Positions 2,796 through 19,598 of a stretch of DNA of 64,000 nucleotides are shown here, in pieces. Every line of letters begins with the position of its first letter. Position 1 is the stretch's first letter. The position numbers were made by a program, and so were the translations under genes. The notes beneath the pieces were generated by a model. The model made no database searches, had not been told where the DNA came from, and worked only from the letters and a program-made list of their open reading frames with translations. The DNA is from Leucothrix pacifica (GTDB lineage Bacteria; Pseudomonadota; Gammaproteobacteria; Thiotrichales; Thiotrichaceae). The stretch spans positions 1 to 64,000 of the forward strand of contig NZ_QGKM01000036.1 in NCBI RefSeq assembly GCF_003172875.1, in the 5' to 3' direction.

Positions 2796-3319
2796 GCAAA
2801 GTAGAAACGATTTATTTTGTTGAGGGTGAGTGCGAGAAGAACTTTATCAACTCTTTCAAAACGAATCGCGCCATTATCTCAGGTAAGGTGCGAATAACGA
2901 ATCTGTGGGAAACAGCCAATATCAACCGGATTATTCGTTCACTCCCAAAACAAGGGGCGGTGATCTATGTGGCTTTTGACACGGACGTCACTTCAGAAGC
3001 CGAGCGTTTTTGTGCAAACATCAAGGCTCTATCAAAGCATTGCCGAAAAATAATTCTCCTACCTCAGCATGAACACTTCGAGGACGAGTTGGCATTCGCT
3101 TGCCAGCAGGCAACCAGAGACTTACCTAGCTACCTATACGGACTTTCTTCTCTCAGCGAGTGTAAAACCAAATTAGCGCAAGACAAAAATCTTGTGAGCA
3201 ACCTTAACGCCAAAGGTTTCGTGCTAGCGCGAATGTGGAGCAGAACCGACATTATCGAGCAATTAATCCTTCCTAAAAATAACATTCAATGGGGTATTGA
3301 ATACGTTTTGACAGATTGA
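2792..3319 (+). CDS. small Toprim-like protein, partner of the upstream ATPase
   Basis: 175 aa. The N-terminal strand IYFVEGECEK (E11, E13) and the strand IYVAFDTD (D63, D65) reproduce the E ... DxD arrangement of Toprim folds (RloB/DUF4276/AriB-like). A third acidic cluster, HFEDEL (E97-E99), follows. The domain fills the whole protein, so it is shorter than AriB (about 300 aa) or OLD nucleases. It overlaps the ATPase gene by 4 bases. Metal-dependent nuclease activity is a reasonable inference from the acidic residues, but it could also be a Toprim-like regulator. No transposase or methylase is attached to the pair. Confidence 0.6.
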   Translation: MSKVETIYFVEGECEKNFINSFKTNRAIISGKVRITNLWETANINRIIRSLPKQGAVIYVAFDTDVTSEAERFCANIKALSKHCRKIILLPQHEHFEDELAFACQQATRDLPSYLYGLSSLSECKTKLAQDKNLVSNLNAKGFVLARMWSRTDIIEQLILPKNNIQWGIEYVLTD

Positions 3320-3379
3320 TCAGTAACTCTACTTGCCCACCATAACACTCTCTTCTTCCCTCTCCAATAATTCCCACCC

Positions 3380-3421
3380 TTGATAAATATCAAGGTACTC
3401 AACCCACTCCTCCTCTATAAA
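3380..3421 (+). promoter_or_regulatory. FNR box and -10 of the cyd operon (class II promoter)
   Basis: TTGATAAATATCAA at 3380-3393 is a perfect FNR/ANR consensus (TTGAT-N4-ATCAA). TATAAA at 3416-3421 sits where a -10 hexamer should be if the box is centred at -41.5, giving a start near 3428. This geometry predicts FNR activation of cydA under low oxygen. The site also rules out the upstream TTG at 3380 as a start codon. Confidence 0.85.
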
Positions 3422-3472
3422 TGCACCCTGAACATCTATTTGTCTGGTCAACAACCAAGGAGCGTTAGCCTC

Positions 3473-5074
3473 ATGATTCCAGAAGAAGTCGTCGATATAT
3501 CGCGGCTGCAGTTTGCCGCAGTCGCCTTATATCATTTTATATTCGTCCCCCTGACCTTAGGGATGACCTTCCTGCTCGCCATTATGGAGTCGGTCTACGT
3601 CATGACCGGTAAGCAGGTCTACAAGGACATGGTTAAGTTTTGGGGTAAATTATTCGGTATTAACTTCGCCTTAGGTGTTGCCACGGGTTTGACCATGGAG
3701 TTCCAGTTCGGTACCAACTGGTCGTACTACTCGCATTACGTGGGTGATATTTTTGGTGCGCCACTGGCGATTGAAGGTCTGATGGCTTTCTTCTTAGAGT
3801 CTACCTTTGTTGGTATTTTCTTCTTTGGCTGGGATCGTTTAAGTAAGGTTTCTCACCTCACAGTAACGTGGTTGATGGCGCTGGGAACGAACTTCTCTGC
3901 GCTATGGATTCTGATTGCGAATGGCTGGATGCAAAACCCGGTGGGTGCAGAATTCAATATCGACACCATGCGTATGGAAATGACCAGCTTTGCTGAGGTG
4001 TTATTTAACCCGGTTGCACAGGTTAAATTCATTCACACCGTATCAGCGGGTTACGTTGCAGGGTCTATGTTTGTACTGAGTATCAGTGCCTGGTACTTGC
4101 TAAAAGGTCGCGACATTGGTTTTGCCAAGCGTTCATTCGCGATTGCGGCGGGCTTTGGTCTGGCGTCTATCCTGTCAGTTATTTTGCTGGGTGATGAGAG
4201 TGGTTACGAAACCGGTGAATTGCAGAAAGCTAAGCTGGCTGCGATTGAAGGTGAGTGGCACACAGAGCCAGCGCCTGCGGCATTTACGGTGGTTGGTTTC
4301 CCCGATCAGGAAGACCGCGAAACGCACAATGCCATTAAGATTCCGTATGTGTTAGGCATCATCGCGACCCGTTCTTTGGATGAAGAAGTGAAAGGTTTGA
4401 ATGACATTATCGCGGAAAACGAAGTTCGTATCCGTAACTCTATGCTGACTTATGCTTTGTTTGAAAAAGTCCGCAAGGGTGAAGCGACGGATGTTGAGAT
4501 CCAAAGTTTTAATGAATCAAAATCAGAGCTGGGTTATGCCTTGTTGCTAAAGCAATTTGCACCGAATGTGGTTGATGCGACTGAGGAGCAAATCAAGGAA
4601 GCGGCGGCAGCGTCCATTCCACACGTTGCGCCGATTTTCTGGTCATTCCGGATTATGGTGGCGGTTGGTTTCACCATGCTGGCAATTTTCGCACTGGCGT
4701 TCTTCTACACCGGACGTCGTACCGTGTTTACCAAGCGTTGGTTCCTGTGGATTTGTTTCCTGAGCCTTCCACTGCCGTGGATCGCGATCGAGACCGGTTG
4801 GTTAGTCGCAGAATATGGTCGTCAGCCATGGGCTGTGGGTGAAATTCTCCCTGTTTCGTCAGCGGTTTCATCACTGACTTATAACGACGTTCTGTACAGC
4901 TTAATCGGTTTTGTTCTGTTCTATACCGTGCTGCTGATCATTGAAGTATATCTGATGCAGAAGTTTGCACGCCTTGGCCCAAGCAGCCTGCACACCGGAC
5001 GCTATTATCATGAAAAGCCCGGCGGCTCGATGTATCACGCGCCTTCTACTAACCCAGAAGCCGAGCTGATGTAA
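3473..5074 (+). CDS. cydA: cytochrome bd ubiquinol oxidase subunit I
   Basis: 533 aa from the ATG at 3473, which has AAGGAG at 3457-3462; the longer TTG-started frame would begin inside the FNR box. It is the heme-bearing subunit that oxidises ubiquinol and reduces O2 in the inner membrane. The N-terminus SRLQFAAVALYHFIFVPLT carries His21, the heme b595 ligand by homology. The block GDESGYETGELQKAKLAAIE begins a long E. coli-type (L-subfamily) Q-loop, ending before FRIMVAVG, and GRQPW is present near 440. It starts the operon cydA-cydB-cydX-cydD-cydC. Expression is predicted to rise at low oxygen through the FNR site. Confidence 0.97.
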   Translation: MIPEEVVDISRLQFAAVALYHFIFVPLTLGMTFLLAIMESVYVMTGKQVYKDMVKFWGKLFGINFALGVATGLTMEFQFGTNWSYYSHYVGDIFGAPLAIEGLMAFFLESTFVGIFFFGWDRLSKVSHLTVTWLMALGTNFSALWILIANGWMQNPVGAEFNIDTMRMEMTSFAEVLFNPVAQVKFIHTVSAGYVAGSMFVLSISAWYLLKGRDIGFAKRSFAIAAGFGLASILSVILLGDESGYETGELQKAKLAAIEGEWHTEPAPAAFTVVGFPDQEDRETHNAIKIPYVLGIIATRSLDEEVKGLNDIIAENEVRIRNSMLTYALFEKVRKGEATDVEIQSFNESKSELGYALLLKQFAPNVVDATEEQIKEAAAASIPHVAPIFWSFRIMVAVGFTMLAIFALAFFYTGRRTVFTKRWFLWICFLSLPLPWIAIETGWLVAEYGRQPWAVGEILPVSSAVSSLTYNDVLYSLIGFVLFYTVLLIIEVYLMQKFARLGPSSLHTGRYYHEKPGGSMYHAPSTNPEAELM

Positions 5075-5086
5075 GGAGAATTTGTT

Positions 5087-6232
5087 ATGGAATTTATTGA
5101 TTATCCAACACTGAAAGTGGTGTGGTGGTTATTGGTTGGAGTACTTTGGTTAGGCTTTGCCATGACTGAAGGCTTCGATATGGGCGTCGGTATGTTGCTG
5201 CCATTTGTGGGCAAGACCGATGAGGAACGCCGTGTCGCGATCAACGCGGTTGCGCCGCACTGGGATGGTAATCAGGTGTGGTTGATTCTGGCTGCGGGTG
5301 CTATTTTTGCCGCTTGGCCAATCCTTTATGCAACCACCTTCTCAGGCTTTTATTTAGCACTGATGTTGATGCTGTTCTCCTTGTTTTTCCGCCCGGTCGG
5401 TTTTGATTACCGCTCTAAGCTGGAAAACAAGCAATGGCGTAATACGTGGGACTGGGGATTATTTATCGCGGGTGTCGTGCCTCCGCTGATCCTTGGGGTG
5501 GCGTTTGGTAACCTGTTCCTGGGTGTGCCATTCCACTACGATGATTACCTGCGTTCATTCTACGACGGTAACTTCTTCGGCCTGCTACACCCATTTGCAG
5601 TATTGTCCGGCTTATTGGCAATTGCTATGTTCGTCATGCACGGCGGCGCGTATCTAATGATGCGCAGCAGCCACGATGTGTATGCCCGTACGCGTCAATA
5701 CACGCAGTGGGCGGCTTTGGCCGTTGCAGCGATCTTCATTATTGAAGGTTTGTGGTTATGGCTGGCTATCGACGGCTATGTGATCACCAGTGTGGTTGAT
5801 CAGGCAGCACCGGCGAATCCATTAGGCAAGACCGTGGAAATTGTGGAAGGCGCATGGTTTAACAACTATGAGACTTACCCACTCACCATGATCGCGCCGA
5901 TTGTCGGTATCGCAGCGGCATTGGGGACTTACCTGATGGCACGTCTGAATAAACCAGGTGCGGCATTTGCGCTTACTACAACCAGCATGTTTGGCATTAT
6001 TCTGACCGGTGCATTTGCCTTGTTCCCGTTTGTATTACCGTCAAGCACTCATCCCGGCCACAGCCTGACACTGTGGGATGCGGCATCCAGTGAGTTAACC
6101 TTGACCATTATGCTGTTCGCTACGCTGTTGTTTGTGCCCATTATTTTGATCTACACCGTGTGGTGCTACATCAAATTGTGGGGTACGTTCACTGTTGAAG
6201 ACATCCGTGCTAATGAGCACTCACTTTACTAA
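5087..6232 (+). CDS. cydB: cytochrome bd ubiquinol oxidase subunit II
   Basis: 381 aa, close to E. coli CydB (379). The N-terminal motif [18 protein letters not shown] and the following [10 protein letters not shown] are diagnostic. Multiple transmembrane helices span the length. It stabilises the heme subunit CydA in the bd oxidase. It begins 12 bases after cydA with AAGGAGAA just upstream, so the two are co-translated. Confidence 0.97.
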
Positions 6233-6244
6233 AAGGAGATAACC

Positions 6245-6346
6245 ATGTGGTATTTCGCTTGGATTCTCGGCGTATTACTGGCCTGTGCATTCGGCATCAT
6301 TAACGTGATGTGGTTAGAGCTGAATGGCTTGGATGACGATGAGTAA
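6245..6346 (+). CDS. cydX: cytochrome bd oxidase small subunit CydX
   Basis: 33 aa, reading MWYFAWILGVLLACAFGI and then an acidic tail GLDDDE. The MWYFAWILG start and single transmembrane helix are the hallmark of CydX, needed for stability and activity of bd-I oxidase. It follows cydB by 12 bases with AAGGAGA as ribosome binding site, and precedes cydD by 11 bases. No ybgE-like gene follows, unlike E. coli. Confidence 0.95.
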   Translation: MWYFAWILGVLLACAFGIINVMWLELNGLDDDE

Positions 6347-6357
6347 GCAGATATACA

Positions 6358-8193
6358 ATGTCTAAGATGACTGATTCAGCCATCCCGGCATTTTTAAAAG
6401 CCCAGAAACCGCTAGCAGGCAATTATTTGCGTCTGTCAGTTGGTCTGGGCTTACTCTCGGGTCTGTTGCTTATTGCACAGGCCTGGAGCTTTGCCAGTAT
6501 TATTAATGCGGTGATTTTTGATGACGCCAAGTTGGGCGATGTCACGCTGTATCTCGCTGCATTACTGGCCATATTTTTACTTCGCGCTGCACTGAACTGG
6601 GCGTCGGAGCAAGCAGCGGTTACTGCTGCGATGCGGGTCAAACGCGACCTGCGCCAACGGCTGCATCAACGATTATTCGATGCTGGCCCCCTCTTATTGA
6701 ATAATGAACGCAGCGGCGAGCTGGTCAACACCCTGGTTGACGGCGTCGATGCACTTGAAAATTACTACGCCCGTTATCTGCCGGTGATGTCACTGGTGGC
6801 GTTGGTTCCTTTATCCATTCTGGTGTTTATCTTTCCGATTGACTGGATCTCCGGATTAATCCTGTTGGTGACTGCGCCGTTGATTCCGTTCTTTATGATC
6901 ATGATCGGCAAGGGCACGGAGCGACTGAACAAGAAACAATGGCGCAAACTGGCGCGAATGAGTGCGCATTTTCTGGATATGATTCAGGGATTGACCACAC
7001 TGAAGTTGTTTAATGCGAGCCGTCGTGAAGCTGATGTGATTGCACGTATTTCGGATGATTATCGTCGCAGTACCATGTCGGTATTGCGGGTGGCGTTTTT
7101 GTCTTCGCTGCTGTTGGAATTTTTGTCTACGGTCAGTATTGCGATGGTGGCGGTGCTGGTGGGCTTTCGCTTGATGTATGGCGAGTTAGATTTCTTTTAT
7201 GGCTTCTTTGCGTTGTTGTTAGCGCCGGAGTTTTACTTGCCGCTGCGTAATATGGGTACGCATTATCATGCGCGTTTGGAAGCGATTGGCGCAGCGGAGA
7301 AGATGGTGGAAATTCTTGAGCCGGGCACATTGCAGCTTGAGGATGGGGTTGATCCTTTGGTAAAGGTACAAGCCTCAGTGAGTGATGGTGGGCAGTCGGA
7401 GCTGTCTGCTGCGCAAAGTCCAACGCGATATACCCCGGAAGCTATCGTAACCGCTCGCAGTATTGGCATTGCCTTCGACCAAGTCAGTTTTGATTACGAG
7501 CCGGGCCGCACTGCTCTGAAAAATATCAGCCTCGATATAAAACCCAACGAACAAATCGCCATCGTTGGTTCAAGTGGTGCGGGAAAAAGCACGCTGATGA
7601 ATTTGTTATTAGGTTTTATCACGCCGCAGACTGGTGAGATTCAAATCAATCAAACACCGCTTGAAACCCAACAGCTAGATTTCTGGCGCAAGCAAATCGC
7701 GTGGATGCCGCAGAAAGCGCATTTATTCCATGGATCGATTCGCGACAATATTTGTTTAGGTCAGGATGACGCCTCCCAACACGCAATGGAAGCAGCGGCT
7801 GAGGCTGCGCAAATTGCAGATTATATAGAGTCACTGCCAGATGCATACGACACCCATGTCGGAGAGCGCGGTGCTGGCTTGTCTGGCGGACAAATTCAAC
7901 GCATTGCGCTGGCACGCGCCTTTTTAAAAGATGCGCCTGTGATGTTGTTGGATGAACCGACTGCACACCTTGATGATGAAAGTGAGCGAATGATTCGGCA
8001 GAGCCTGAAGCGATTGGTGGAGAATCGCACAGTGATTAGTATCGCGCATCGCCTGAATACCGTGGAGCAAGCGGATCGTATTGTGTTGCTAGATGCTGGT
8101 GAGATAGTGGCGATTGGTAAGCATGACGAGTTGCTTGCAACACAACCACTGTACAAAGAAATGGTCTCGCGCTTCCGGGAAGGTGCGATATGA
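6358..8193 (+). CDS. cydD: thiol-reductant ABC exporter subunit CydD
   Basis: 611 aa, an ABC half-transporter: six-helix membrane domain (about 20-310) and ATPase domain (about 365-600). Walker A is GSSGAGKS, the signature is GLSGGQIQR, Walker B is VMLLDEPTAHLD, and the H-loop is IAHRL. With CydC it exports glutathione/cysteine to the periplasm, which is needed for bd oxidase heme assembly. A linker of about 50 residues rich in polar residues (about 330-365) separates the domains. It is fused to the cydABX operon here, whereas E. coli keeps cydDC apart. Confidence 0.95.
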   Translation: MSKMTDSAIPAFLKAQKPLAGNYLRLSVGLGLLSGLLLIAQAWSFASIINAVIFDDAKLGDVTLYLAALLAIFLLRAALNWASEQAAVTAAMRVKRDLRQRLHQRLFDAGPLLLNNERSGELVNTLVDGVDALENYYARYLPVMSLVALVPLSILVFIFPIDWISGLILLVTAPLIPFFMIMIGKGTERLNKKQWRKLARMSAHFLDMIQGLTTLKLFNASRREADVIARISDDYRRSTMSVLRVAFLSSLLLEFLSTVSIAMVAVLVGFRLMYGELDFFYGFFALLLAPEFYLPLRNMGTHYHARLEAIGAAEKMVEILEPGTLQLEDGVDPLVKVQASVSDGGQSELSAAQSPTRYTPEAIVTARSIGIAFDQVSFDYEPGRTALKNISLDIKPNEQIAIVGSSGAGKSTLMNLLLGFITPQTGEIQINQTPLETQQLDFWRKQIAWMPQKAHLFHGSIRDNICLGQDDASQHAMEAAAEAAQIADYIESLPDAYDTHVGERGAGLSGGQIQRIALARAFLKDAPVMLLDEPTAHLDDESERMIRQSLKRLVENRTVISIAHRLNTVEQADRIVLLDAGEIVAIGKHDELLATQPLYKEMVSRFREGAI

Positions 8194-9875
8194 ATACGGT
8201 GATGAGCAATTGGCAAGTCATTAAACGTTTACTGGTACTGATGCGCCCTTGGTATGGCTGGATGCTTTTGGGGACCTTGTTATCGCTGATTACCATACTG
8301 GCCAATATCAGTTTGATGGCTTTATCTGGTTGGTTCATCGCAACGATGGCAATGGCCGGTATTTCCGGTGCTAGTGTTAACTATTTTACGCCCGCTGCGG
8401 GTATTCGTGCATTTGCGATTGCGCGGACCGCTAGCCGATACGGTGAGCGTTTGGTTACACATGAAGCGACTTTCCGATTACTGGCGACACTTCGAACGTG
8501 GTTTTACGAACACCTCGAACCGCTAGCACCGGCGATATTGCAGAACTATCGATCCGGTGACTTGCTTAGTCGCATCCGAGCGGATATCGATGCATTGGAA
8601 AACTTTTATCTGCGCATACTCGCACCGCTATTAGTGGCTGCGATTACCAGCTTAGTGATTCTGCTATTTTTACTGCAGTACAGTGTTCTATTAGCACTGA
8701 TCGAACTGGTGTTTTTGATGATCGCAGGCATCATGGTTCCCTTGCTGATTAACAAGCTGGCGCACCACGCCTCCACCCGACAAGTTGAAACCACTTCAGA
8801 ATTACGCTCTGCTGTTATCGACAGCACGCAAGGCATGAGCGAGTTATTGATTTATGGCGCAGCAGAAAAACAAGCAGAGCGTGTGAATGCTCTGAGTGAT
8901 CAACTATTGGATGACCAAAAACATTTAGCAAAGTTAAACGGTGGTTCGGCTTCGGCACTCGGCTTATGTGCCAACCTCAGTATGTGGTTGATGTTGATTG
9001 TGACTATTCCAATGGTCACAACCGGCAAGCTTGCACCAGCTAATCTGCCGATGATTGCGCTCTTTGCACTGGCTAGTTTTGAAGCGATTCTGCCATTGCC
9101 GCTAGCGTTTCAAACATTACCCGGCACACTTGCGGCTGCGCGACGCTTATTCGACATAGTCGATACCAAACCTGCCATCATTGAGCCTGTCACACCGACG
9201 GCTATGCCAGAACAGTTTGATATTGAAATCGATAATGTCAGCCTACGCTACCCGAATAGTCATACCAATGCACTAAACGCCATAAGCCTCAATATTCCAC
9301 AAGGCACTCACCTTGCTATTGTTGGGCCGAGTGGCTCTGGGAAAAGCACCTTGATCAACGCACTGCTGCGCTTTTGGCCTGTCGAGTCTGGGGAGATTAA
9401 ACTGGGAGATATCAATATTGATCAGTTTAGTGGGGAAGAGTTGCGTTTGCAGTTTGCCGTTGCAACACAGCAAAGCACTCTGTTTAACAGCACCATTAAA
9501 CGTAATTTATTACTGGCTAAACGTGACGCATCAGATGAAGAGCTTGAGCAGGTGTGTAAGCTGGCACAGATTCATGAGTTTATAGAAACCTTGCCAGAGG
9601 GTTATGAAACCTGGATTGGTGAAGCTGGACATAAACTGTCCGGCGGACAGATTCGTCGTCTGGGTGTTGCCCGCGCGCTGCTGAAACCGGCTTCTGTGCT
9701 TATTTTAGATGAGCCGGGTGAAGGTTTGGACAGTGTAACTGAGCAGAAAATGATTCAGGCCATCGTTGATAGTGCTAAGGGTCGCACCTTGATTTTGATT
9801 ACTCACCATCTGGTTGGGCTAGAGAATATGGATCAGATTGTTCGGCTTGAGCAGGGGCATATTGTCAAACGCTAA
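8190..9875 (+). CDS. cydC: thiol-reductant ABC exporter subunit CydC
   Basis: 561 aa, the partner half-transporter of CydD, overlapping it by ATGA. The membrane domain begins with LMRPWYGWMLLGTLLSL and has the conserved ALSGWFIA helix. The ATPase domain has Walker A GPSGSGKS, signature KLSGGQIRR, and Walker B VLILDEPGEGLD. The LSGGQIRRLG pattern and E-G-L-D after Walker B are CydC-like. The pair works in the inner membrane to export reduced thiols. Confidence 0.94.
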   Translation: MNTVMSNWQVIKRLLVLMRPWYGWMLLGTLLSLITILANISLMALSGWFIATMAMAGISGASVNYFTPAAGIRAFAIARTASRYGERLVTHEATFRLLATLRTWFYEHLEPLAPAILQNYRSGDLLSRIRADIDALENFYLRILAPLLVAAITSLVILLFLLQYSVLLALIELVFLMIAGIMVPLLINKLAHHASTRQVETTSELRSAVIDSTQGMSELLIYGAAEKQAERVNALSDQLLDDQKHLAKLNGGSASALGLCANLSMWLMLIVTIPMVTTGKLAPANLPMIALFALASFEAILPLPLAFQTLPGTLAAARRLFDIVDTKPAIIEPVTPTAMPEQFDIEIDNVSLRYPNSHTNALNAISLNIPQGTHLAIVGPSGSGKSTLINALLRFWPVESGEIKLGDINIDQFSGEELRLQFAVATQQSTLFNSTIKRNLLLAKRDASDEELEQVCKLAQIHEFIETLPEGYETWIGEAGHKLSGGQIRRLGVARALLKPASVLILDEPGEGLDSVTEQKMIQAIVDSAKGRTLILITHHLVGLENMDQIVRLEQGHIVKR

Positions 9876-9941
9876 TATTCTGGACTATCCTACACGCCTT
9901 ATTATGACAGTTGCGCAACAGCATCGGGAGCGTGGGATAAC

Positions 9942-10655
9942 ATGGCAAAACTACAAGGCAAAGGCGATTGCCAGAGCTGCCCTATCCGGCATAAAAGTAT
10001 TTTTTCAGAAATTCCGGTAGAAAAACTTCCGGAGGTTATAGGTGACTTCCGCACATCTGTCATCACGTTAACGCATAATGAAACCATTTACACTGAAGGC
10101 GACCCGGCCAAGCACACATTCACTTTGCGCAAAGGTTTAATCAAACTCACCAAGTCACTGGCTGATGGGCGCACACAAATTGTACGAATCATTGGTCATG
10201 GTGAGCTATTTGGTTTTGATGGTTTAGCCGGTGAAGACTACAACCAGACCGCTCTTGCCCTGACTGATTGCGAAATCTGCAAGCTTCCGATGAAGGATCT
10301 CGAGCGAATTCGTGCCAATAACCCTTCAGTTGATAAGGCTATGATGCAGAGCTGGATTCAGAGCCTGCGTGCCTCTGAAAATATGTTGCTTGATCTCGGT
10401 GCTAAAAAAGCGCCTGAGCGCTTAGCCAGCTTTTTGCTGAAATGGTGCAAAGACAAAGAGCCGGGGCAATGGATTGACTTGCCCATGTCGCGCACTGAGA
10501 TTGCTGAGTTATTGGGGCTGACAGTCGAAACGGTCAGTCGCTTTTTGTCGGACTGGAAGCGTAAGGGGTTTATTCAGGATACGCGTAGCACGATTCAATT
10601 GACAGACCCTGAAGGGTTGAAACAGGCGGTTTGTAGTTCGGCTCGCGGTTTGTGA
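9942..10655 (+). CDS. CRP/FNR-family regulator with two CxxC pairs
   Basis: 237 aa: cyclic-nucleotide-binding-like beta-roll (about 30-140), dimer helix, and a winged HTH, MSRTEIAELLGLTVETVSRF (about 178-197), whose ETVSR matches the FNR recognition helix reading TTGAT. FNR needs three N-terminal cysteines plus one more, but here the N-terminus has only C10 and C13 (CQSC) and the beta-roll has C110 and C113 (CEIC). A cluster built from two CxxC pairs is possible but unproven. It begins 66 bases after cydC with GGGAG upstream, so it may belong to the cyd operon and act on the FNR box at 3380. Confidence 0.88.
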   Translation: MAKLQGKGDCQSCPIRHKSIFSEIPVEKLPEVIGDFRTSVITLTHNETIYTEGDPAKHTFTLRKGLIKLTKSLADGRTQIVRIIGHGELFGFDGLAGEDYNQTALALTDCEICKLPMKDLERIRANNPSVDKAMMQSWIQSLRASENMLLDLGAKKAPERLASFLLKWCKDKEPGQWIDLPMSRTEIAELLGLTVETVSRFLSDWKRKGFIQDTRSTIQLTDPEGLKQAVCSSARGL

Positions 10656-10846: not shown

Positions 10847-11437
10847 GTGAGTTACCCAATACCAAAACACAGCACACTTTCCGGCGTGCCTCTGATGCTT
10901 CGTAACCTAGTGAAGCAGGAAGGGGACTCTGGTTCAGAGCTCCTCAGCATGGTGGATCATTATGTCCAGCGTTGTTGCCGTGTATATTTCACACTTGATT
11001 ATAGAGACCAGCAAGATATTGCTCAGGAAGCAGCGATCAAATTAATCCTGAACTACGAAGATATGAAATATACAATTACCAAGCGCTGGCTGTATGTCAT
11101 GGTTAAAAACCTCTGCATTGATGCAGTCAGGAAGCAAGGTAGCAAAAACCAACTAACCTCCTCTGAATCACAACAAGACCCGGATGTTCCTTTGCCCGGC
11201 ATGGAAGAGTTTACTTATTCCTCTAACTTTGATCATCATGAATGTCTGGATAATGTGTTTGCCTATATTTCTGCCCAACCGAACGGGCAGGAAGACTTAA
11301 CCATTTACTCACACTTTGCCTACGGCCTTGGTCGTGCTGATATTGCACATATAACAGGCCGTACGGTCAATGCAGTCACCAAGCGTATTTCAATATTAAG
11401 AGCACGCCTGAAGACACTTCGTGATGAACTTTGCTAA
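10847..11437 (+). CDS. RNA polymerase sigma factor, ECF-like (sigma-70 family)
   Basis: 196 aa from a GTG at 10847; an ATG at 10892 is an alternative. Region 2 is seen as DQQDIAQEAAIKLILNY and KRWLYVMVKNLCIDAVRKQ. Region 4 is the C-terminal HTH ADIAHITGRTVNAVTKRISILRARLKTL. Such small sigma factors direct a dedicated regulon and usually answer to a membrane partner. The next gene, 18 bases downstream, encodes a single-pass membrane protein, the natural candidate for that partner. Target promoters cannot be named from the sequence. Confidence 0.85.
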   Translation: MSYPIPKHSTLSGVPLMLRNLVKQEGDSGSELLSMVDHYVQRCCRVYFTLDYRDQQDIAQEAAIKLILNYEDMKYTITKRWLYVMVKNLCIDAVRKQGSKNQLTSSESQQDPDVPLPGMEEFTYSSNFDHHECLDNVFAYISAQPNGQEDLTIYSHFAYGLGRADIAHITGRTVNAVTKRISILRARLKTLRDELC

Positions 11438-11455
11438 TACTTTACGGGTATTTTT

Positions 11456-12760
11456 ATGAGTGAGAAAGATTCCAAACAAACCCTGATTCCCCGAGATGAC
11501 GATGAGCAGTGGCAGAAAGTCCTCAGGGGTGAGGTTGAAGTGGATCAAGAGAATGAAACTCACCGTGAAGCCAAAGCGTTACGCGAGTATCTACTCAGTA
11601 CGGAGGTTAGAAACGCCGTTGAGTCAGTCCCTCCTTCTCATGCATTAAATACCATCACTCCGGAAGAAGCCAGAGTAGAATACCGACGCGCTAGTGCTGA
11701 GATTCACAGAAGGGCTAATACCGGGTGGTATCGCTGGCTGAGTTACGGTCTGGTTTCCCTGTTTGGCTTAATGGCTGGCTTAATTGCTTTCTTTGCAGCG
11801 AACTACTTCTCTGATTCAAAAGACACTAACAATGAGCGAGTCGCTTTATCATCCAGTGACAATAGAATTGATACTCAGAGCTTTGGAGATAAATATCAAG
11901 TCTACAAAAACGGGAGAACACCGGGTATTTATCCGAATATGCTCCCAGTGCCCGGGGGGCAATTCATTATGGGCTGTAGTAATGGTTGGGATGATGTTGC
12001 GGGGGGCTGTCGTGAGAATGAGTACCCCGCACACACCGTTACCGTCAAGTCATTTGAACTCGCCCAACATGAAGTGACTGTCGGACAGTTTCGCTTGTTT
12101 GTAGAAGATAGCAACTATCAAACGATCGCTGATGACAGGGGATGTGTAATTGCAGACCCTGAGTCGCCTTCGCCACGCTGGATTATGGATAAAGCTTCTA
12201 ACTGGCGCTCTCCGGGTTTTGAGCAAGAAGATTCACACCCTGTTGTCTGTCTGACTCGTTCGGATGCATTAGCCTATATCGCGTGGCTGAACAAAAAGAC
12301 CAGTAAACAATACCGACTCCCGACTGAAGCAGAATGGGAATATGCTGCACGTGCCGGTACGGCCACGCCCTACTATTGGGGAAACCGGGCAGACCATAAT
12401 CAAGCTAATTTAAAAGACATTGCCGGTGCTGATATTTGGCAGCATACCTCACCGGTTGGTAGCTTCCCTGCCAATCGCTTTAACCTTCAGGATATGCTGG
12501 GAAATGCCTGGGAGTGGGTGGCAGACTGCTGGCATGATAACTATATTTCAGCCCCTCTTGATGGTTCAGCCTGGAATACCAACTGTAATGGGAGTGATTT
12601 TATTACTCGACGCGGCGGTGCATGGGATGCTTCCACGTTAAATATACGCTCCTCTTATCGTAGTCATGCTGGCAGTACCGACCGAAGCCAAGGCTATGGA
12701 TTTCGGGTTGCTCATGACATGGCGCCGACAAGCTCAGAGGTAAAAGCAACAAGCGAATGA
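11456..12760 (+). CDS. membrane-anchored SUMF1/FGE-fold protein paired with a sigma factor
   Basis: 434 aa. A charged cytoplasmic N-terminus (1-92) precedes one transmembrane helix (about 95-118, YGLVSLFGLMAGLIAFF), then a linker and a periplasmic formylglycine-generating-enzyme-like domain (about 155-425). Fold markers are GGQFIMGCS, EVTVGQFRLFVE, RLPTEAEWEYAAR, LGNAWEWVADCW and GYGFRVA. The two catalytic cysteines of true FGE near the RRGG strand are absent (RRGGAWDASTLNIRSSYR), so a ligand-binding or scaffold role is more likely than formylglycine formation. The position directly after the sigma factor suggests it acts as anti-sigma or sensor, which is inference. Confidence 0.8.
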   Translation: MSEKDSKQTLIPRDDDEQWQKVLRGEVEVDQENETHREAKALREYLLSTEVRNAVESVPPSHALNTITPEEARVEYRRASAEIHRRANTGWYRWLSYGLVSLFGLMAGLIAFFAANYFSDSKDTNNERVALSSSDNRIDTQSFGDKYQVYKNGRTPGIYPNMLPVPGGQFIMGCSNGWDDVAGGCRENEYPAHTVTVKSFELAQHEVTVGQFRLFVEDSNYQTIADDRGCVIADPESPSPRWIMDKASNWRSPGFEQEDSHPVVCLTRSDALAYIAWLNKKTSKQYRLPTEAEWEYAARAGTATPYYWGNRADHNQANLKDIAGADIWQHTSPVGSFPANRFNLQDMLGNAWEWVADCWHDNYISAPLDGSAWNTNCNGSDFITRRGGAWDASTLNIRSSYRSHAGSTDRSQGYGFRVAHDMAPTSSEVKATSE

Positions 12761-12871
12761 ACAGACATCGTTTATAATTTTATCTTTTTTTACACACCCC
12801 CGTAAGAAAAAACTCTCTCGCCCGTATCTTCAATGAGCGTCAACAAGAAACAGGTCTGGAGAGAGAGCCAA

Positions 12872-13501
12872 ATGAATATCATGATAGCTAACGAAAGTCG
12901 TTTACTCGGGGAAGGGGTAAGCATGATGATTAAAGCATCTTTTGCAAACGCCGACATTGTGCTGGCAGATTCCGCAAAAGATATTATTAGAACCATTAAC
13001 GGCCCATCAACAAACAGCTGGCATGTCATACTTATAGACTCCCAGCTATCCAAACTGATTAAACCTAAGCGCTTACATCACTTAATGCCCGGGGCGAAAG
13101 TCTGCCTGTTTAATGCTAAGAAAAGCCGGACAACTCCAGATGAGTATCTCAGAGCAGGGTTCAATGGCGTGTTAGCTGACTCCACATCCCCCAATGATTT
13201 AAAAAAGGCGATGGGGACACTGCTATCCGGAAGAGACTTTTTCCCTGAAGAAGCGAGTCATTCCCGCAGAGGCTTTTTTAGATCTCCCCAAAGAGATAAC
13301 AAAAAGACCGTAATCACACATAGAGAGCAAGAAATTCTGTCCCTGATGGCACTGGGGTTAAGTAATAAAGAAATTGCCCGTCACCTTGATGTGGCAGAAG
13401 CGACCGTTAAACGCCATATTAGCAATGCGTTTAAAAAGTTGGGCGCAAAAAACAGGGTTGAGGCCACCCAAATGGCCAATGAAAAAGGGTTGTTACACTG
13501 A
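12872..13501 (+). CDS. LuxR-type response regulator with a degenerate receiver
   Basis: 209 aa from the ATG at 12872, which has GGAGAGAG about 5 bases upstream and aligns with the usual receiver start; the longer frame begins at 12833. The receiver reads MNIMIANESRLL where active ones read ADDH; the phospho-acceptor-like Asp in ILIDSQ is kept, but the conserved Lys position is changed (GVLADS). The C-terminal HTH (THREQEILSLMALGLSNKEI ... TVKRHISNAFKKLGAKNR) is a standard NarL/LuxR domain. It closely resembles the regulator at 15863, so they look paralogous. It probably does not depend on normal phosphorylation. Confidence 0.85.
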   Translation: MNIMIANESRLLGEGVSMMIKASFANADIVLADSAKDIIRTINGPSTNSWHVILIDSQLSKLIKPKRLHHLMPGAKVCLFNAKKSRTTPDEYLRAGFNGVLADSTSPNDLKKAMGTLLSGRDFFPEEASHSRRGFFRSPQRDNKKTVITHREQEILSLMALGLSNKEIARHLDVAEATVKRHISNAFKKLGAKNRVEATQMANEKGLLH

Positions 13502-13520
13502 CCTCAACCAGACTTTTTTG

Positions 13521-14552
13521 TTAACTACACCCCGTCCCTTTCTGCAAGTAACAATTAATCAACTCTAGTTCATCAACATCGCTGGTGTCTGTGGCGCAGC
13601 TACTTTTTTCCAGATCAACAGGCTGATCTAAATCCACCATGGACCACTTCGGATGGTAATTGCCTTCACCAAGGCCACCAGATGCCAGTAGCATTAAATT
13701 ATCCCTGATGACATTACTAATTTGATTAACTTGCTCACAACGCATTCGGTAATAATAAGAATTGTCTTTACCAAAATCATGACTCACCAAAAGTGCTTTT
13801 ACTGCAATAGTTGGCACTGTGACCCGGGTTAACTGATGACGACGATCTTTTGTGACATAGTCCTGAGGTAAAAAGCTTGCTGTCGCATAAGTCTGGTTCA
13901 ATCGGTCATCATCAATTGGCACCAGATGAATCTCATCCATATACTTACTTAACTTTTCATTCGACTTCATTTCCAATAAGCCGTTGATATAACTGACTGG
14001 CTTTCCGCCAACAAAAAACACCGCATCGACTTTACCAAGAATCAGTGATTCGTAAGCCTCCTTAGGTGTCAGGTCATAAATTTGCTTAACATTGATATCG
14101 AGTATATTCAGTATATTGTTGGATGTAATATGTGTGCCACTACCGAGCTCACCAACAACGACCCGCTTATTTTCCAGTTCATTGATTGATCCAATATTCT
14201 TGCGTGCCAACAGATGAACCTCCTCATCATAGAGAGGAAGGACCAACCTCAGGTTGCGAAGCACTTTTCTGTTAACCCTACTCGGATTCTTTGATAAAAA
14301 ATCAATAACGTCCGACTGTACGATTGAGATACCTGCATTTTCAGTACCCGCCATACGTCGAAGATTCTCCAAAGAACCTGACGATTTTGTGATATTGATA
14401 TCCACACCTTTCTCAGCGGCAAGGCTAGCGATATCTGTTCCCATGGAGTAATAAGTCCCACCTGAAGTACCTGTTGGCATCCCAATAGGAGGGTTTGCCG
14501 ATGTATTCAACGAAAAGGACAGCAATAGAATAAGTGATAATATTCGCTTCAT
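13521..14552 (-). CDS. TAXI-family substrate-binding protein (orphan)
   Basis: 343 aa with a signal peptide (MKRILSLILLLSFSLNTSA). The block GTSGGTYYSMGTDIA and SSGSLENLRRM, with the later VVVGELGSGTHITSNNIL, are typical of TAXI/TRAP solute-binding proteins. No TRAP membrane subunit gene is nearby. It sits amid two-component genes, so it may present a ligand to the BvgS-like sensor at 16863-19598 rather than feed transport. It has a Cys-containing C-terminal extension (SSCATDTSD ... CYLQKGTGCS). Confidence 0.82.
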   Translation of the reverse strand: MKRILSLILLLSFSLNTSANPPIGMPTGTSGGTYYSMGTDIASLAAEKGVDINITKSSGSLENLRRMAGTENAGISIVQSDVIDFLSKNPSRVNRKVLRNLRLVLPLYDEEVHLLARKNIGSINELENKRVVVGELGSGTHITSNNILNILDINVKQIYDLTPKEAYESLILGKVDAVFFVGGKPVSYINGLLEMKSNEKLSKYMDEIHLVPIDDDRLNQTYATASFLPQDYVTKDRRHQLTRVTVPTIAVKALLVSHDFGKDNSYYYRMRCEQVNQISNVIRDNLMLLASGGLGEGNYHPKWSMVDLDQPVDLEKSSCATDTSDVDELELINCYLQKGTGCS

Positions 14553-14599
14553 AATTCATTCTCTTTTAAAGGAGTTTTGTAAGAAAGCCGGTTGATGAC

Positions 14600-15355
14600 T
14601 CAATTTGCTTGCGTTAAAAACGCTTCAATATCGGCGTTCAGGCGCTGAGTGCGTTCGGCTTTGAGCTCGGCAAGGACGGCTACTTCTGGTTCCGTCTTAA
14701 TAGACTTTGTTAACGCAGTGTTGGTTGGCTTATTAGTCTCAGGCAAAACACTCAGCGACACCGCTTCAGGTAAATCCAGCGGGGTTACGATCGCTGAATC
14801 TTTTTTATCAAAAGCTATTGACCCAACCGCAAAGTGAATTGTTGATAACGTCACCAGCACCATCGCAGTACGCAGCATTAGGGGACTGTTTTTTTGTTTC
14901 GGACTCACAGTGGTTAATTGGTCGTTAGCGGCTTCTCTGCCGTTCTGACGTGTTTCTCGCATGAGTCGTGTAACCGGCTCTGAATCTGTATTAAGTTTTG
15001 GTGGAAGCTCTGGAAAACAGTGCTGTCGAATATTTCGACGCATGACTTCGGATAGTGATAATGCAGCCGCCCAGGCATCAACGCCCCAAGCGAGGTCAGG
15101 CTCACTTTCTGGCTGTCTTGAAACAATGTCGTTGATACATGTGTAAACATCTGACTCATCAACTTCAGCGCCTCGATGAGCAATCAAAGCATCTGGCAAC
15201 GCTGATTGTCTTAGTGACGTTAGTAATTGCTTCTCATGGGGATAATCAACCATATACCCTGCCAGATAGACTTGGCAGTAAGCATTCATAGTCGCTATTT
15301 TTTCTCCGTGATTTGCAACCGCAGATACTAAAATTCCATGCGCATCATTGTTCAT
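14600..15355 (-). CDS. single-pass membrane protein of unknown function
   Basis: 251 aa. The soluble N-terminal domain (about 5-105) follows a pattern known from many uncharacterised bacterial proteins: a helix with G.KIATMNAYCQVYLAGYMVD, E..LL.SLR..ALPDALIA, and an ending AWGVDAWAAAL. A polar linker (about 110-150) precedes a hydrophobic helix (about 157-173, MLRTAMVLVTLSTIHFAV). The rest is a Glu/Lys-rich tail, probably periplasmic. It lies upstream of the TAXI gene on the same strand, 47 bases away, so they may be co-transcribed. I do not know the function. Confidence 0.6.
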   Translation of the reverse strand: MNNDAHGILVSAVANHGEKIATMNAYCQVYLAGYMVDYPHEKQLLTSLRQSALPDALIAHRGAEVDESDVYTCINDIVSRQPESEPDLAWGVDAWAAALSLSEVMRRNIRQHCFPELPPKLNTDSEPVTRLMRETRQNGREAANDQLTTVSPKQKNSPLMLRTAMVLVTLSTIHFAVGSIAFDKKDSAIVTPLDLPEAVSLSVLPETNKPTNTALTKSIKTEPEVAVLAELKAERTQRLNADIEAFLTQAN

Positions 15356-15862
15356 TTGTTAAGCCCCCTTGACAATCTGACTACCTGAAGTGCTACGCCA
15401 GATAAGTCAAATTACTTCATAACCATTGTTTCATTCAATTTGCCCAAATATGAAGTGCTGAAACAAAGTTCTACATTAATGACGAAGACATTATCATAAC
15501 AACAGAACATTTTATGTATAAATAAAAAACACATTGATTATTAAGTAAACATTGAATACACCTTAAGATGTAGATTTTTGTATTTTTTTAATGCAACACA
15601 ATCCAGCTCAGGACTACTTCATCATTCCAGGCGAGTCTTAATGCATGGATTTAAACAGGATATTGGTTCGTTGAGCGCTCGGCCTGCTTGTGCAGACCTG
15701 AAAAGAAATAATTGTCTGTAAGATACAATTATGTAATGCTAAAAAGTGACCAACTAAGTTAAAGTCGGTCTAAAATACATAACTAGCCATAAATGACTTG
15801 ATACCGACTTACAAAAAGCTACTTATGCAAACTAAAAACCGATACTGAAGCCCCATAAACCT
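15356..15862. other. intergenic region between divergent genes, no gene seen
   Basis: 507 AT-rich bases between a minus-strand membrane protein gene and the response regulator gene. I see no coding frame or RNA gene. TTGTTTCA (15426-15433) and TGAAACAA (15459-15466) form an 8-bp inverted repeat and TGAAGTGCT occurs twice, but neither matches a site I know. Promoters for both neighbours should lie here. Confidence 0.4.
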
Positions 15863-16483
15863 ATGAAAATACTGCTCGCAGACGACCACACGCTGTTTAG
15901 AGATGGATTTTCTATGATTATCAGTGCCACGACTATCGATGCAGAAATCTACCCGGCCGATAACTGGAATGAAGCACTGTCTCTGATACAGAAACAATCA
16001 TTCGATATCGCATTACTGGACTTATTCATGCCGGGAAACAAACCTTGGCAACAAGAACTGTCTACGTTTATGTCCCACGCGTCTAATGTACCTGTTTGTA
16101 TTGTGTCAGCTTCCAATAATCAGTCGCATATCAATCAGGCATTTAAACTGGGCGTGAAGGGCTATATCCGCAAAACATCCGGAGCCTCTGAAGTCAAAAG
16201 AGCATTATCCAGCGTTCTCAATGGCGGACATTACCGGGACTGGAAAATCTCGCCACCCCCTGAATCAATCAAAACGGCTGACCTAAAACTAACCAGACGA
16301 CAGAAGGAGATACTCATGCTGATTGCTGATGGTAATAGCAACAAACAAATAAGCTTGTTGTTGAGTATCAGTGAGAGCACCGTGAAGCGCCACGTCTATG
16401 ACTTGTTTAAGGCACTCGGCGCAAAAAACAGAGTAGATGCCGTACAGATCGCCAAGAAACAACACTTACTAATAGATCAATGA
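15863..16483 (+). CDS. NarL/LuxR-type response regulator
   Basis: 206 aa. The receiver is complete: acidic pair D7-D8 (LLADDHTLFRDG), phospho-acceptor D53 (IALLDLFMPG), and conserved Lys in GYIRKTS. The C-terminal HTH (LTRRQKEILMLIADGNSNKQI ... STVKRHVYDLFKALGAKNR) binds DNA. It overlaps the Hpt gene by ATGA, and a hybrid kinase gene converges from the other side, so it is the likely output of that phosphorelay. Confidence 0.93.
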   Translation: MKILLADDHTLFRDGFSMIISATTIDAEIYPADNWNEALSLIQKQSFDIALLDLFMPGNKPWQQELSTFMSHASNVPVCIVSASNNQSHINQAFKLGVKGYIRKTSGASEVKRALSSVLNGGHYRDWKISPPPESIKTADLKLTRRQKEILMLIADGNSNKQISLLLSISESTVKRHVYDLFKALGAKNRVDAVQIAKKQHLLIDQ

Positions 16484-16839
16484 ACCCCACTCCTACCGTA
16501 AACACGGGATACGACCCGATAGAAAAGCTCAGTGCGTTGCTCACTCCTGCACAGGTATTTAAATTTGTTCAACAAGCTGTTCCCGAACTAAAGCTGGCAC
16601 ATGCCTCACTTCAACACTCACTCATCAATCAGCAATGGGCAGATGCATCCAAGCAGGCACACCGCTTAAAATCAACGATTAGCCTGCTTTCTGTCGATAG
16701 TCTTGTTCACAACCTGGACCTTATCGAGTCTGCTGACAGCACAGCCGTTGAATCCTCAGACTTTAGAGAGCTAGTGGCAAGTCAGTGCCAACAATTAGTG
16801 GATAGTCTGGAGTCATATTTGAACAACAAGCCAGACTGA
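16480..16839 (+). CDS. stand-alone Hpt phosphotransfer protein
   Basis: 119 aa, helical, with HRLKSTISLL giving the phospho-accepting His61 followed by the usual Lys at +3 and Ser at +4. It starts inside the end of the response regulator gene (ATGA at 16480). The convergent kinase has a receiver but no Hpt domain, so this protein probably shuttles phosphate from that receiver to D53 of the LuxR regulator. The family normally has this domain fused to the kinase in BvgS/EvgS. Confidence 0.85.
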   Translation: MNPTPTVNTGYDPIEKLSALLTPAQVFKFVQQAVPELKLAHASLQHSLINQQWADASKQAHRLKSTISLLSVDSLVHNLDLIESADSTAVESSDFRELVASQCQQLVDSLESYLNNKPD

Positions 16840-16862
16840 TTCAGCACAATGTTGTCGCATGT

Positions 16863-19598
16863 TTACTGCTCGTTTAATACCCCATAAATCGCTCGGTATA
16901 AATCCTGATACTCAAATGGTTTAGCCAGAAAGCCATTCATTTCTGCTGCTTCACAATGTTGCTTTATGTGCGTCAGATTGTGAGCCGTGAGTGCAATTAT
17001 GGGCACATTGGGGTTTAAGCTATGATTTCTAATCCACTGACTCACCTCAAAGCCGTCCATTTCAGGCAAACTAATATCCATCAAAACCACATCAAAACTT
17101 TTTTGTTGCAACTGGACAATCGCCCCTTCTCCGGTTGAAGCCAGTGAAACGCTTCCACCCATATTTTTAATCATTTCCCCGCCAACATAACGATTTAATG
17201 GCGCATCATCAGTCAAGAGAATTTGAATACCTGCGGGTAAGGTAAAGTCATCCAAACCGTCAGCAATGATTGCCTGAGAAACCATATGATCATCAGCGAG
17301 CTCAAACGTAATATCAAAATAAAACCGACTGCCTTGGCCAAGCCTGCTTTCGACGTGTAATTGTCCTCCCATCAACTCGACCAGACTTTTACTAATTGCC
17401 AGCCCCAAGCCGACTCCTTCACTCGTATTTGACGCTGAATTAATCACACGTTGGTAGGGGTCAAACAGACTCTTAAGATCGGCCTCTGCGATACCAATAC
17501 CAGTGTCTGTGACACTAAAGGCAATTCGAACCGTATTCTCTGTTGATTCTGGTAGTTGAGTGACCACTAAACTGACCTCACCCTCTTCGGTGTATTTAAT
17601 CGCATTATTGATCAGGTTGATCAACACTTGTGAGAGATGCCCACGGTCACCAATAATAGCAATCGACTCCAGTCCCTCACTCATTACCGTCAAGGCAATG
17701 CCTCTATCGTCAGCTTTTTGCATCAATATACTTTTTACGGAGTGCAAAGCGATATCCAAACGGAAACTCTGTTGCTCCAGCTCAAAGCTATCATTTTTGA
17801 CTTTAGCAAAATCCAACAGGTTGTTGATTAGCTGCATCATGTAGCCAGATGAGGCCTCGAGTTTCTCAACATAAGACTTTTGTGTAGGATCAAGTGGGCT
17901 AAGTTTAAGCAATGCATTTAAGCCTGAAATAGCATTCATGGGTGTCCGTAGCTCATGGCTCATGACCGCCAAAAAGTCATCCTTAGCCTTTGCTCTGATT
18001 TTTACCACCATGGTGTTCCAGTAAAAAATAAGTGCTACTAGCAAAAGCGTTGCAATCAGTACTTTCCAGATGAGCGTATAATCAACCTCAGTTTCATATT
18101 TTACAGGCACCCATTTGTGAAGAATCTCTCTGTGTGTTTCATTGCTCAGGTTATTAATCGTGTTTTGTAAGATATCCAGTAAAACGGTATCTTGCTTCAC
18201 CACGGCCATTGACAGCTTTAAATCTTCGTCTATCTTTCCTGCTATTTTTAGCTCGCCGAAGTACTCACTTTGGAATTCGTAGCCGATACTCGCCAGTGTA
18301 TCGATATAGGCAAACAACGCTTCATTCTTCACGCTATCCAGGCCTTGATTGATATCATCTACCTCTACCAAGGTGAGTGAGGGATATTTAAGCCTGAGTA
18401 TATCGACAAACGCATCCCCCCGGATTATGCCGACCTTCTGTCCCTCTAAATCCAATATATTATTAATAAAGGGGACATCCACTCTTGTTGCGACCACCAA
18501 GGGCACTTCTAAATAATGGCTCGTGAAATTTAGGTACTCTTTTCTGTCATGTGTTTCCATTCCCAAAGCCAGCATGTCACACTTTTCTTCACGGATGGCA
18601 TTGATTGACTCACTCCAGCTACGGGTTTTAACGAGTTCAAACTTGGCTGACAGCATTTTTTCAAACAAGTCATAGTAATCCGCACTCATACCGACATGCT
18701 CACCTTGTTCGTTCAATCCCTCAAAAGGCAGGCCAGATGGGTTGATACAATACTTAATGGTATTTTGATCAAGGTAGGCGATTTCATGATGGCTTAGCTC
18801 GATGTGCCCTCCTGCATATTCCTTAATCGAGCCAATCCATTTATTCACTAATGAGGCTTTTTCTTTTTTTGTAATACTATCCAAGCCTTTTTGAAGAATG
18901 CTGCTGAGCAATGGCTTTTCGGGCTGAACACCAAGGCGTAAATCCTCTTTTTTTGTATTTTTTAAGCTGAGCTCACTCGCAAGTCGGATATTATTATAAG
19001 AGTGCTTCTTGATCAGGTGGTTTATATTGGTCAGGTTCTGTAGTAGAGCATCCACTTTACCAAACACTAAGTCCTTGGTTAGCTCCTCATAGGTGTCATA
19101 ATAAACCAATTCCATCGTGTTCATTGCTTCAAGCTCTGCCAGATAAAAAACGTCTTTTAGCACTCCGACCCTTTTGTTTTCAAGGCTATTTATGCCTAAG
19201 TATTCACCAAAATCATCCCTTACGAATATCATAATAGGGATTTCGTAATAGGCACTTGTGAAGGTGGTGAATGGCTCTCTGAACTTTTTATAAGAAATAC
19301 TGGTGATAACATCCCGCTCTTTATTCTTAAAAGCGTTGTAGTTGGTTGTCCAGTTTGAAAAGCTTTTTTCAAAATATAAGCCTGTCTTTTCAGAGATAAG
19401 GTTGAGCAAATCATGCTCAAAGCCGACAGGACTATTTTCGATAGAATAAGAGAAAGGAGTAAAGTCCGGCATCATTGCCACGGTGACTTTGGGATTTGAG
19501 GCGATGTATTCTTTCTCTTCTTCGGTAAACTCAATGGCTACCGCCTTAGCACTGATCAACAGACCCAACATGAAGATGAGCGCGGGTAATATTTTCAT
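16863..19598 (-). CDS. BvgS-like hybrid sensor histidine kinase with two periplasmic binding domains
   Basis: 911 aa. A signal peptide (1-22) precedes two tandem SBP_bac_3 (Venus flytrap) domains at about 28-262 and 270-500, a transmembrane helix (about 509-528), HisKA with H548 (MSHELRTPMNAIS), and HATPase (NLINNAIKY, DTGIGI, GVGLGLAI). It ends in a receiver with D797-D798 and acceptor D841 (VVLMDISLPEMDGF). No PAS domain separates the membrane helix from HisKA, unlike BvgS, and no Hpt domain follows. The Hpt gene ends 23 bases away on the other strand. It likely senses a small ligand in the periplasm. Confidence 0.95.
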   Translation of the reverse strand: MKILPALIFMLGLLISAKAVAIEFTEEEKEYIASNPKVTVAMMPDFTPFSYSIENSPVGFEHDLLNLISEKTGLYFEKSFSNWTTNYNAFKNKERDVITSISYKKFREPFTTFTSAYYEIPIMIFVRDDFGEYLGINSLENKRVGVLKDVFYLAELEAMNTMELVYYDTYEELTKDLVFGKVDALLQNLTNINHLIKKHSYNNIRLASELSLKNTKKEDLRLGVQPEKPLLSSILQKGLDSITKKEKASLVNKWIGSIKEYAGGHIELSHHEIAYLDQNTIKYCINPSGLPFEGLNEQGEHVGMSADYYDLFEKMLSAKFELVKTRSWSESINAIREEKCDMLALGMETHDRKEYLNFTSHYLEVPLVVATRVDVPFINNILDLEGQKVGIIRGDAFVDILRLKYPSLTLVEVDDINQGLDSVKNEALFAYIDTLASIGYEFQSEYFGELKIAGKIDEDLKLSMAVVKQDTVLLDILQNTINNLSNETHREILHKWVPVKYETEVDYTLIWKVLIATLLLVALIFYWNTMVVKIRAKAKDDFLAVMSHELRTPMNAISGLNALLKLSPLDPTQKSYVEKLEASSGYMMQLINNLLDFAKVKNDSFELEQQSFRLDIALHSVKSILMQKADDRGIALTVMSEGLESIAIIGDRGHLSQVLINLINNAIKYTEEGEVSLVVTQLPESTENTVRIAFSVTDTGIGIAEADLKSLFDPYQRVINSASNTSEGVGLGLAISKSLVELMGGQLHVESRLGQGSRFYFDITFELADDHMVSQAIIADGLDDFTLPAGIQILLTDDAPLNRYVGGEMIKNMGGSVSLASTGEGAIVQLQQKSFDVVLMDISLPEMDGFEVSQWIRNHSLNPNVPIIALTAHNLTHIKQHCEAAEMNGFLAKPFEYQDLYRAIYGVLNEQ

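Follow-up and report, generated by a model that had tools for sequence, protein, structure and literature searches.

The ECF-type sigma factor and the membrane protein encoded directly after it in the window, the stretch of 64,000 nucleotides of Leucothrix pacifica DNA analyzed here (contig NZ_QGKM01000036.1, positions 1 to 64,000), probably form one signalling unit, in which a membrane-held sigma factor would be released through a sensor of the FGE fold. Judging from the sequences, we give this reading a probability of about 0.58. The N-terminal cytoplasmic domain of the partner would hold the sigma factor at the inner membrane, and the periplasmic FGE-fold domain, devoid of the FGE cysteines, would be the sensor, binding either a ligand or a protein. 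Ligand binding (or cleavage) would then cause a change passing inward via the juxtamembrane and transmembrane helix, and the freed sigma factor would drive the transcription of its targets. The features of the pair are presented in Table 1.

Table 1. Features of the sigma factor/membrane partner pair in the window.
Feature	Position	Strand	Details
ECF-type sigma factor gene	10847..11437	+	196 aa, GTG start; Pfam Sigma70_r2 and alignment of 17 family sequences
Cys133 codon, start of region 4	11243..11245	+	same residue in 17/17 aligned sigmas
Cys196 codon, final sigma residue	11432..11434	+	C-terminal Cys in 18/18 complete family members
Single-pass membrane protein with periplasmic FGE-fold domain; candidate anti-sigma factor or sigma regulator	11456..12760	+	434 aa
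Cytoplasmic N-terminal domain, residues 1-92; candidate sigma-binding domain	11456..11731	+	alignment of 16
Transmembrane helix, residues 97-115	11744..11800	+	hydropathy 2.01, one segment
Periplasmic FGE/SUMF1-fold (C-type-lectin-like) domain, residues 158-424	11927..12727	+	six conserved cysteines, FGE catalytic cysteines absent

The first-pass annotation had paired a sigma factor with a membrane protein of the SUMF1 fold, and Pfam matched both proteins accordingly. The sigma factor matched region 2 above the cut-off (PF04542, Sigma70_r2, E 6.1e-7, 29.6 bits for a cut-off of 24), and the partner matched FGE-sulfatase on residues 160-419 (PF03781, E 2.5e-55). Region 4 of the sigma factor was weakly recognized (PF08281, E 0.079, 13.1 bits, below the cut-off of 25.7), and the NCBIfam model TIGR02937 reached 36.4 bits on residues 40-189, below its cut-off of 42.9. 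Cys133 and the terminal cysteine are constant across the 17 aligned sigmas, at identities as low as 24%. In 24 of the loci compared, 201 non-overlapping ORFs reach 150 aa or more; 17 of them end in cysteine, and 16 of these are family sigmas, leaving 1 of the 185 other ORFs. That all 18 family sigmas end in cysteine, with another invariant cysteine where region 4 begins, is new here. The model of the sigma factor from its single sequence (pLDDT 33.9) was too poor to place Cys133 relative to Cys196. We speculate that through the invariant cysteines the sigma factor also responds to metal or redox state in the cytoplasm, as a second input. The sigma factor OrbS can be inhibited by Fe(II) through cysteines located at the end of region 4.2 and beyond it (PMC9023288), and CorE and ECF57 are further sigma cases with cysteines (PMC8999054). 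No motif common to the regions upstream of the sigma genes rose above shuffled sequences in 19 of 20 regions, the window's own having been left out; an extended -10-like TGCTAT was seen by eye in some of these regions.

The partner gene of the window starts 18 nt past the sigma stop. Its product was described at first as a single-pass protein with a periplasmic domain, and we indeed observed one hydrophobic helix, flanked by 5 K/R residues on the N side and 2 on the C side, which indicates an N-in orientation; the same K/R bias was present in 18/18 partner proteins examined. W19, G25, L46 and Y76 are invariant in the alignment of 16 N-terminal domains. The AlphaFold model of the partner, built on 24 sequences of which 23 cover the FGE part alone, is confident over most of the ectodomain and weak at the N-terminus, where it predicts helices at residues 15-23, 31-46 and 49-56 (pLDDT about 46-71 in these three), a low-confidence linker, and a long fourth helix (69-119) running into the membrane. 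The class I anti-sigma domain plan (PMC7406223) has a three-helix bundle, then a flexible linker, then a fourth helix. Membership of this class was considered and not assigned, in view of the weak model in this region and of the comparison with RseA_N, in which no likeness was detected above reversed controls (hhalign probability 0.14, for 0.48 and 0.78 with reversed sequences and 0.12 with a sigma control).

Scanning the 16 N-terminal domains against Pfam at E<=5 gave no convincing family. The 19 names obtained were scattered over 1-2 members each, with DUF2157 as the best (E 9e-4, two members) and Sigma_reg_N found once (E 0.17), and they were taken as chance or TM-driven matches. FecR_N (PF16220) was absent from the families given for these domains at the same threshold with the HMMER filters on, and it was matched in 1 of 56 genomes, the window's genome not being that one. 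Similarly, no anti-sigma or defence family was detected on the membrane protein in the Pfam, NCBIfam and PADLOC scans. From synteny, topology and the weak helix model, we infer an anti-sigma role for the N-terminal domain, which would bind and inhibit the sigma factor, and residues 1-92 are plausibly the domain concerned. The first-pass proposal that the usual anti-sigma partner is replaced holds at the window locus and fails at the scale of the genome, which encodes an RseA_N protein elsewhere (C63).

The proposed FGE/SUMF1 fold was well supported by structure. The model of residues 157-422 superposed on PvdO with a Z of 32.8 (2.1 A over 243 residues) and the ectodomain model on human FGE with a Z of about 31, and the search, which covered residues 154-424, also returned the DGR protein TvpA (Z 25.9) and the phage protein Mtd (Z 13.0). 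FGE catalysis relies on a cysteine pair, and PDB titles for FGE name the C336S and C341S mutants. In the window's protein, the corresponding segment reads GGAWDASTLNIRSSYR, and no cysteine was found there in any of the 17 aligned members, in agreement with the loss of catalytic cysteines noted at the outset. Six other ectodomain cysteines are conserved, five of them in 17/17 and one in 16/17 members, a number that would suit three periplasmic disulfides. PvdO was also the best sequence match of the ectodomain (E 3.7e-44), and the NCBIfam PvdO equivalog scored 171.4 bits, thus not reaching its cut-off of 500. PvdO is reported to be needed for dihydropyoverdine oxidation, the purified protein being inactive (PMC6206403). 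Because PvdO has this reported oxidation role without the FGE cysteines, their absence is no proof of lost catalysis. FGE folds are ligand binders elsewhere, as in the structural matches TvpA and Mtd, and by analogy it is plausible that the FGE domain of the partner binds a ligand.

The conservation of the pair was analyzed in 63 genomes of the family, which also make up the whole sample for the order, an order of one family with 8 genera. The sigma-family profile gave 22 matches in 15 of these genomes, from which three contig-edge fragments (G040, G041 and G003:C24) and an ordinary ECF sigma ending in His (G018) were left out. Directly after each of the 18 complete family sigmas lies a partner gene, reduced in one case to a broken remnant, so the separation in relatives that was to speak against the pairing was not observed. 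Fifteen partners carry the N-terminal domain, the TM helix and the FGE domain, one lacks most of the N-terminal domain, one lacks FGE and one is broken (C46). The partner that keeps only the juxtamembrane part of the N-terminal domain, with TM and FGE (G002:C1:5015116), was missed by the N-domain profile and has an intact sigma neighbor; the one from G004, counted among the 15, leaves its contig after 99 codons and continues on a second contig with an overlapping start. The distance from sigma to partner ranges from -7 to +18 nt in the 16 cases measured (C46 and G039 left out), the alignment-fitting start having been used over the longest ORF in several loci. With the N-domain profile, we obtained 21 matches in 12 of the 63 genomes, including a weak match to an unrelated protein (C125) and the continuation of the G004 gene on its second contig. 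Only two genes with the N-terminal and FGE domains stand without an intact sigma neighbor, C88 and G002:C1:4593649, the latter with no sigma at all.

In an even class-wide sample of 369 genomes searched at E<=1e-14, family matches came from three genomes of the same bacterial family only. A fourth genome (G162) was rejected, its match being an unrelated ECF that lacks the terminal cysteine and, by reading, neighbors a von Willebrand-type gene. A scan of 78 related loci with the sigma profile gave no family sigma. We read the pair as a putative lineage-restricted family of sigma factors and membrane regulators. Among the papers listed in searches of open-licence PMC, including PMC8195603, PMC7253367 and PMC12452194, none was seen to couple an ECF sigma to a membrane protein bearing an FGE domain.

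The sigma tree (14 sequences) and the membrane-protein tree (16 sequences) have most supported groups in common, with a weakly supported conflict inside one group (G6+G1c versus G2b+G1c); the window's sigma lies on a long, unresolved branch. Pairwise distances of sigmas and partners correlate at 0.74. Over 14 pairs, sigma distances correlated with those of the FGE part (r 0.73) and of the N-terminal domain (0.58), and the partial correlations were 0.54 and -0.03, respectively. The latter values speak against a simple co-evolution reading, as they point to the FGE part and not to the N-terminal domain.

The window's genome possesses four loci of the family, two intact and two damaged. The second intact pair is located at C77:119.5-121.3 kb; in C46 the sigma is intact and the partner gene broken, and C88 has an intact partner gene with a sigma reduced to its last 38 codons. 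The C88 membrane protein is the nearest to the window's (68% identity). A different arrangement, likewise new here, was observed in G037 (C1:108.3-110.5 kb), where three genes stand in a row, for a caspase (Peptidase_C14 in Pfam, E 2.7e-14), a terminal-Cys sigma and an FGE-less membrane partner. The sigma has 24% identity to the window's and was matched at E 4e-28 by a profile built without it. The 240-aa partner consists of the N-terminal domain and the TM helix, and the former gave an hhalign probability of 24% and an E of 8e-4 against a profile also built without it, which indicates a modest kinship. Since this partner stands beside the sigma without FGE, the membrane/N-terminal part can persist without the ectodomain. 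The C-terminus of the caspase looks like a degenerate FGE by eye, with no Pfam call. Fusions of caspase and FGE domains have been described, as have metacaspase operons that include sigma-70 factors (PMC3501461).

In six genomes of the genus, the pair or part of it occupies the same neighborhood, with glnS upstream in 6/6 and cobS in 5/6 (by reading). On the downstream side stands a solitary gene for DUF772 (transposase N-domain), and if the contig extends far enough, a YigZ-like gene comes after it. The DUF772 calls come from Pfam in two genomes, and the remaining names in this core locus from reading. These DUF772 (IS5-type) genes (L010:10895-11311, minus strand; L032:7931-8353, plus strand; and counterparts) lie directly or nearly directly past the pair, and the solitary gene is possibly a domesticated DNA-binding protein. 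TIR and nSTAND1-WD40 genes come next in 2/6 core loci, in the window's genome (L010:4457-9318, Pfam) and in G006 (in L035, by reading), the G004 contig ending before this point. The window copy lies outside the core locus and adjoins cydDC-like ABC genes and an FNR/Crp-type regulator (by reading).

The gene following the pair (12833-13501) is, as first annotated, a response regulator with a degenerate receiver: its LuxR-type HTH was detected at E 3.8e-20, the receiver scored 14.1 bits for a Pfam cut-off of 30.2, and by reading N-E stands at the acidic pair, with other residues at the positions of the conserved T and K. It had also been proposed to share the output of the sigma factor, which was not borne out. 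No ORF like it was found at E<=1e-3 in ten other loci (nine of relatives and one of the same genome), and across 7 genomes of the genus its only other matches at E<=1e-20 have 32% and 34% identity, the 34% match being the response regulator at 15854 of the window. The region 12833-19598 contains the degenerate response regulator, an NMT1_3 (TAXI-like) protein, a second response regulator, an HPt-like protein and a hybrid sensor kinase (16863-19598), the last two named by reading, and looks like a separate two-component cluster.

In the genome as a whole, 15 FGE matches were counted, the strongest in a TIR-FGE fusion (G000:C59:69314-70075; TIR_2 E 1.6e-21, FGE E 3.6e-66), together with four reverse transcriptase matches, none on the window's contig. 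A diversity-generating retroelement (DGR) with two FGE-domain targets is present at G000:C80:11000-22000 (L198), with the reverse transcriptase at 5300-6367 (minus strand), the targets at 2440-5247 (plus) and 7111-10140 (minus), and the template near 6926-6985. Over the best 60 bases, the template shows 8 differences from each target copy, every one an A in the template. Both targets start with a TIR-like sequence by eye.

If the pair works as proposed, signalling would be added to the roles of FGE folds, here as the sensing part of a transmembrane sigma regulator, and the N-terminal domain, absent from Pfam, would be a candidate family of anti-sigma domains. A two-input sigma switch, responding to periplasm and cytoplasm, could be what the invariant terminal cysteine means. 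FGE domains occur in conflict systems (PMC7159879 and PMC10907252), and a link to self/non-self recognition is worth testing because four loci are present in one genome and TIR/STAND genes lie by 2/6 core loci. A bolder and rather improbable proposal would make the pair a new, order-limited family of transmembrane sigma regulators, with an undescribed sigma-binding domain, a C-terminal cysteine switch on the sigma and a lectin-like FGE ectodomain recognizing foreign or kin molecules. It would then be the transcriptional arm of a recognition repertoire made of the TIR-FGE protein and the FGE-diversifying DGR of the window's genome and of the caspase/sigma operon of a relative.

Several other readings were weighed. 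The membrane protein could be a positive regulator like FecR, with an N-terminal domain needed for sigma activity or freed as an activator by proteolysis. Gene order and topology are those of FecI/FecR, two membrane genes persist without a sigma, and at G049 an ORF that by reading resembles a TonB-dependent receptor (L142:8304-10280, minus strand) is located three genes upstream of the pair; with FecR_N missing both from the 16 N-terminal domains and from the window's genome, we consider this role unlikely. It is quite unlikely that the FGE domain is instead a periplasmic enzyme of the PvdO type, the sigma merely controlling its operon. PvdO is the best match in sequence and in structure is equally Cys-free in the catalytic segment, and is required for its oxidation step (PMC6206403), but the NCBIfam score lies far from the cut-off, and such an enzyme would have no need for a conserved cytoplasmic domain, which the FGE-less partner of G037 has kept.

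Very unlikely in our view is a sigma factor that itself senses metal or redox through Cys133 and Cys196, as OrbS does, with the membrane protein being secondary. The invariance of both cysteines in 17 sequences and the terminal cysteine (18/18 for 1/185 other ORFs) fit such self-sensing, and OrbS is a precedent with C-terminal cysteines; however, OrbS has a C-terminal cluster of four cysteines and no adjacent anti-sigma gene (PMC9023288), whereas one terminal cysteine and a fixed partner are found here. Finally, we give hardly any credence to a single output system joining the pair and the degenerate response regulator: the genes share a strand with a gap of 72 nt, but the regulator has no counterpart in the ten other loci compared. 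Overall, release of a membrane-held sigma through the FGE-fold sensor is the reading we prefer.

Compared to known systems, the window pair resembles RpoE/RseA in that a single-pass N-in protein is encoded directly downstream of a short sigma and, in a low-confidence prediction, has three helices and a fourth leading to the membrane. Unlike RseA, its N-terminal domain has no RseA_N profile likeness, its ectodomain is an FGE fold, and the RseA_N protein of the genome is separate. In FecI/FecR, the sigma gene is likewise followed by a single-pass membrane regulator. The window pair has the same layout, but its partner has no FecR_N match and an FGE ectodomain. PvdO, nearest in sequence and structure, shares the Cys-free catalytic segment; its chain of 286 residues aligns with the ectodomain alone, unlike the full partner of 434 aa. 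OrbS and CorE (PMC9023288 and PMC8999054) have in common with the window's sigma that a cysteine is conserved where region 4 ends on the C-terminal side, and they have a cysteine cluster or a Cys-rich domain where the window's sigma has one terminal cysteine. The helix order predicted, with low confidence, for the N-terminal domain resembles that of class I anti-sigma domains (PMC7406223). The metacaspase-FGE and metacaspase-sigma-70 systems (PMC3501461) have a parallel in the caspase, sigma and membrane partner of G037; unlike them, the window pair adjoins no caspase gene and carries its FGE domain on the membrane partner.
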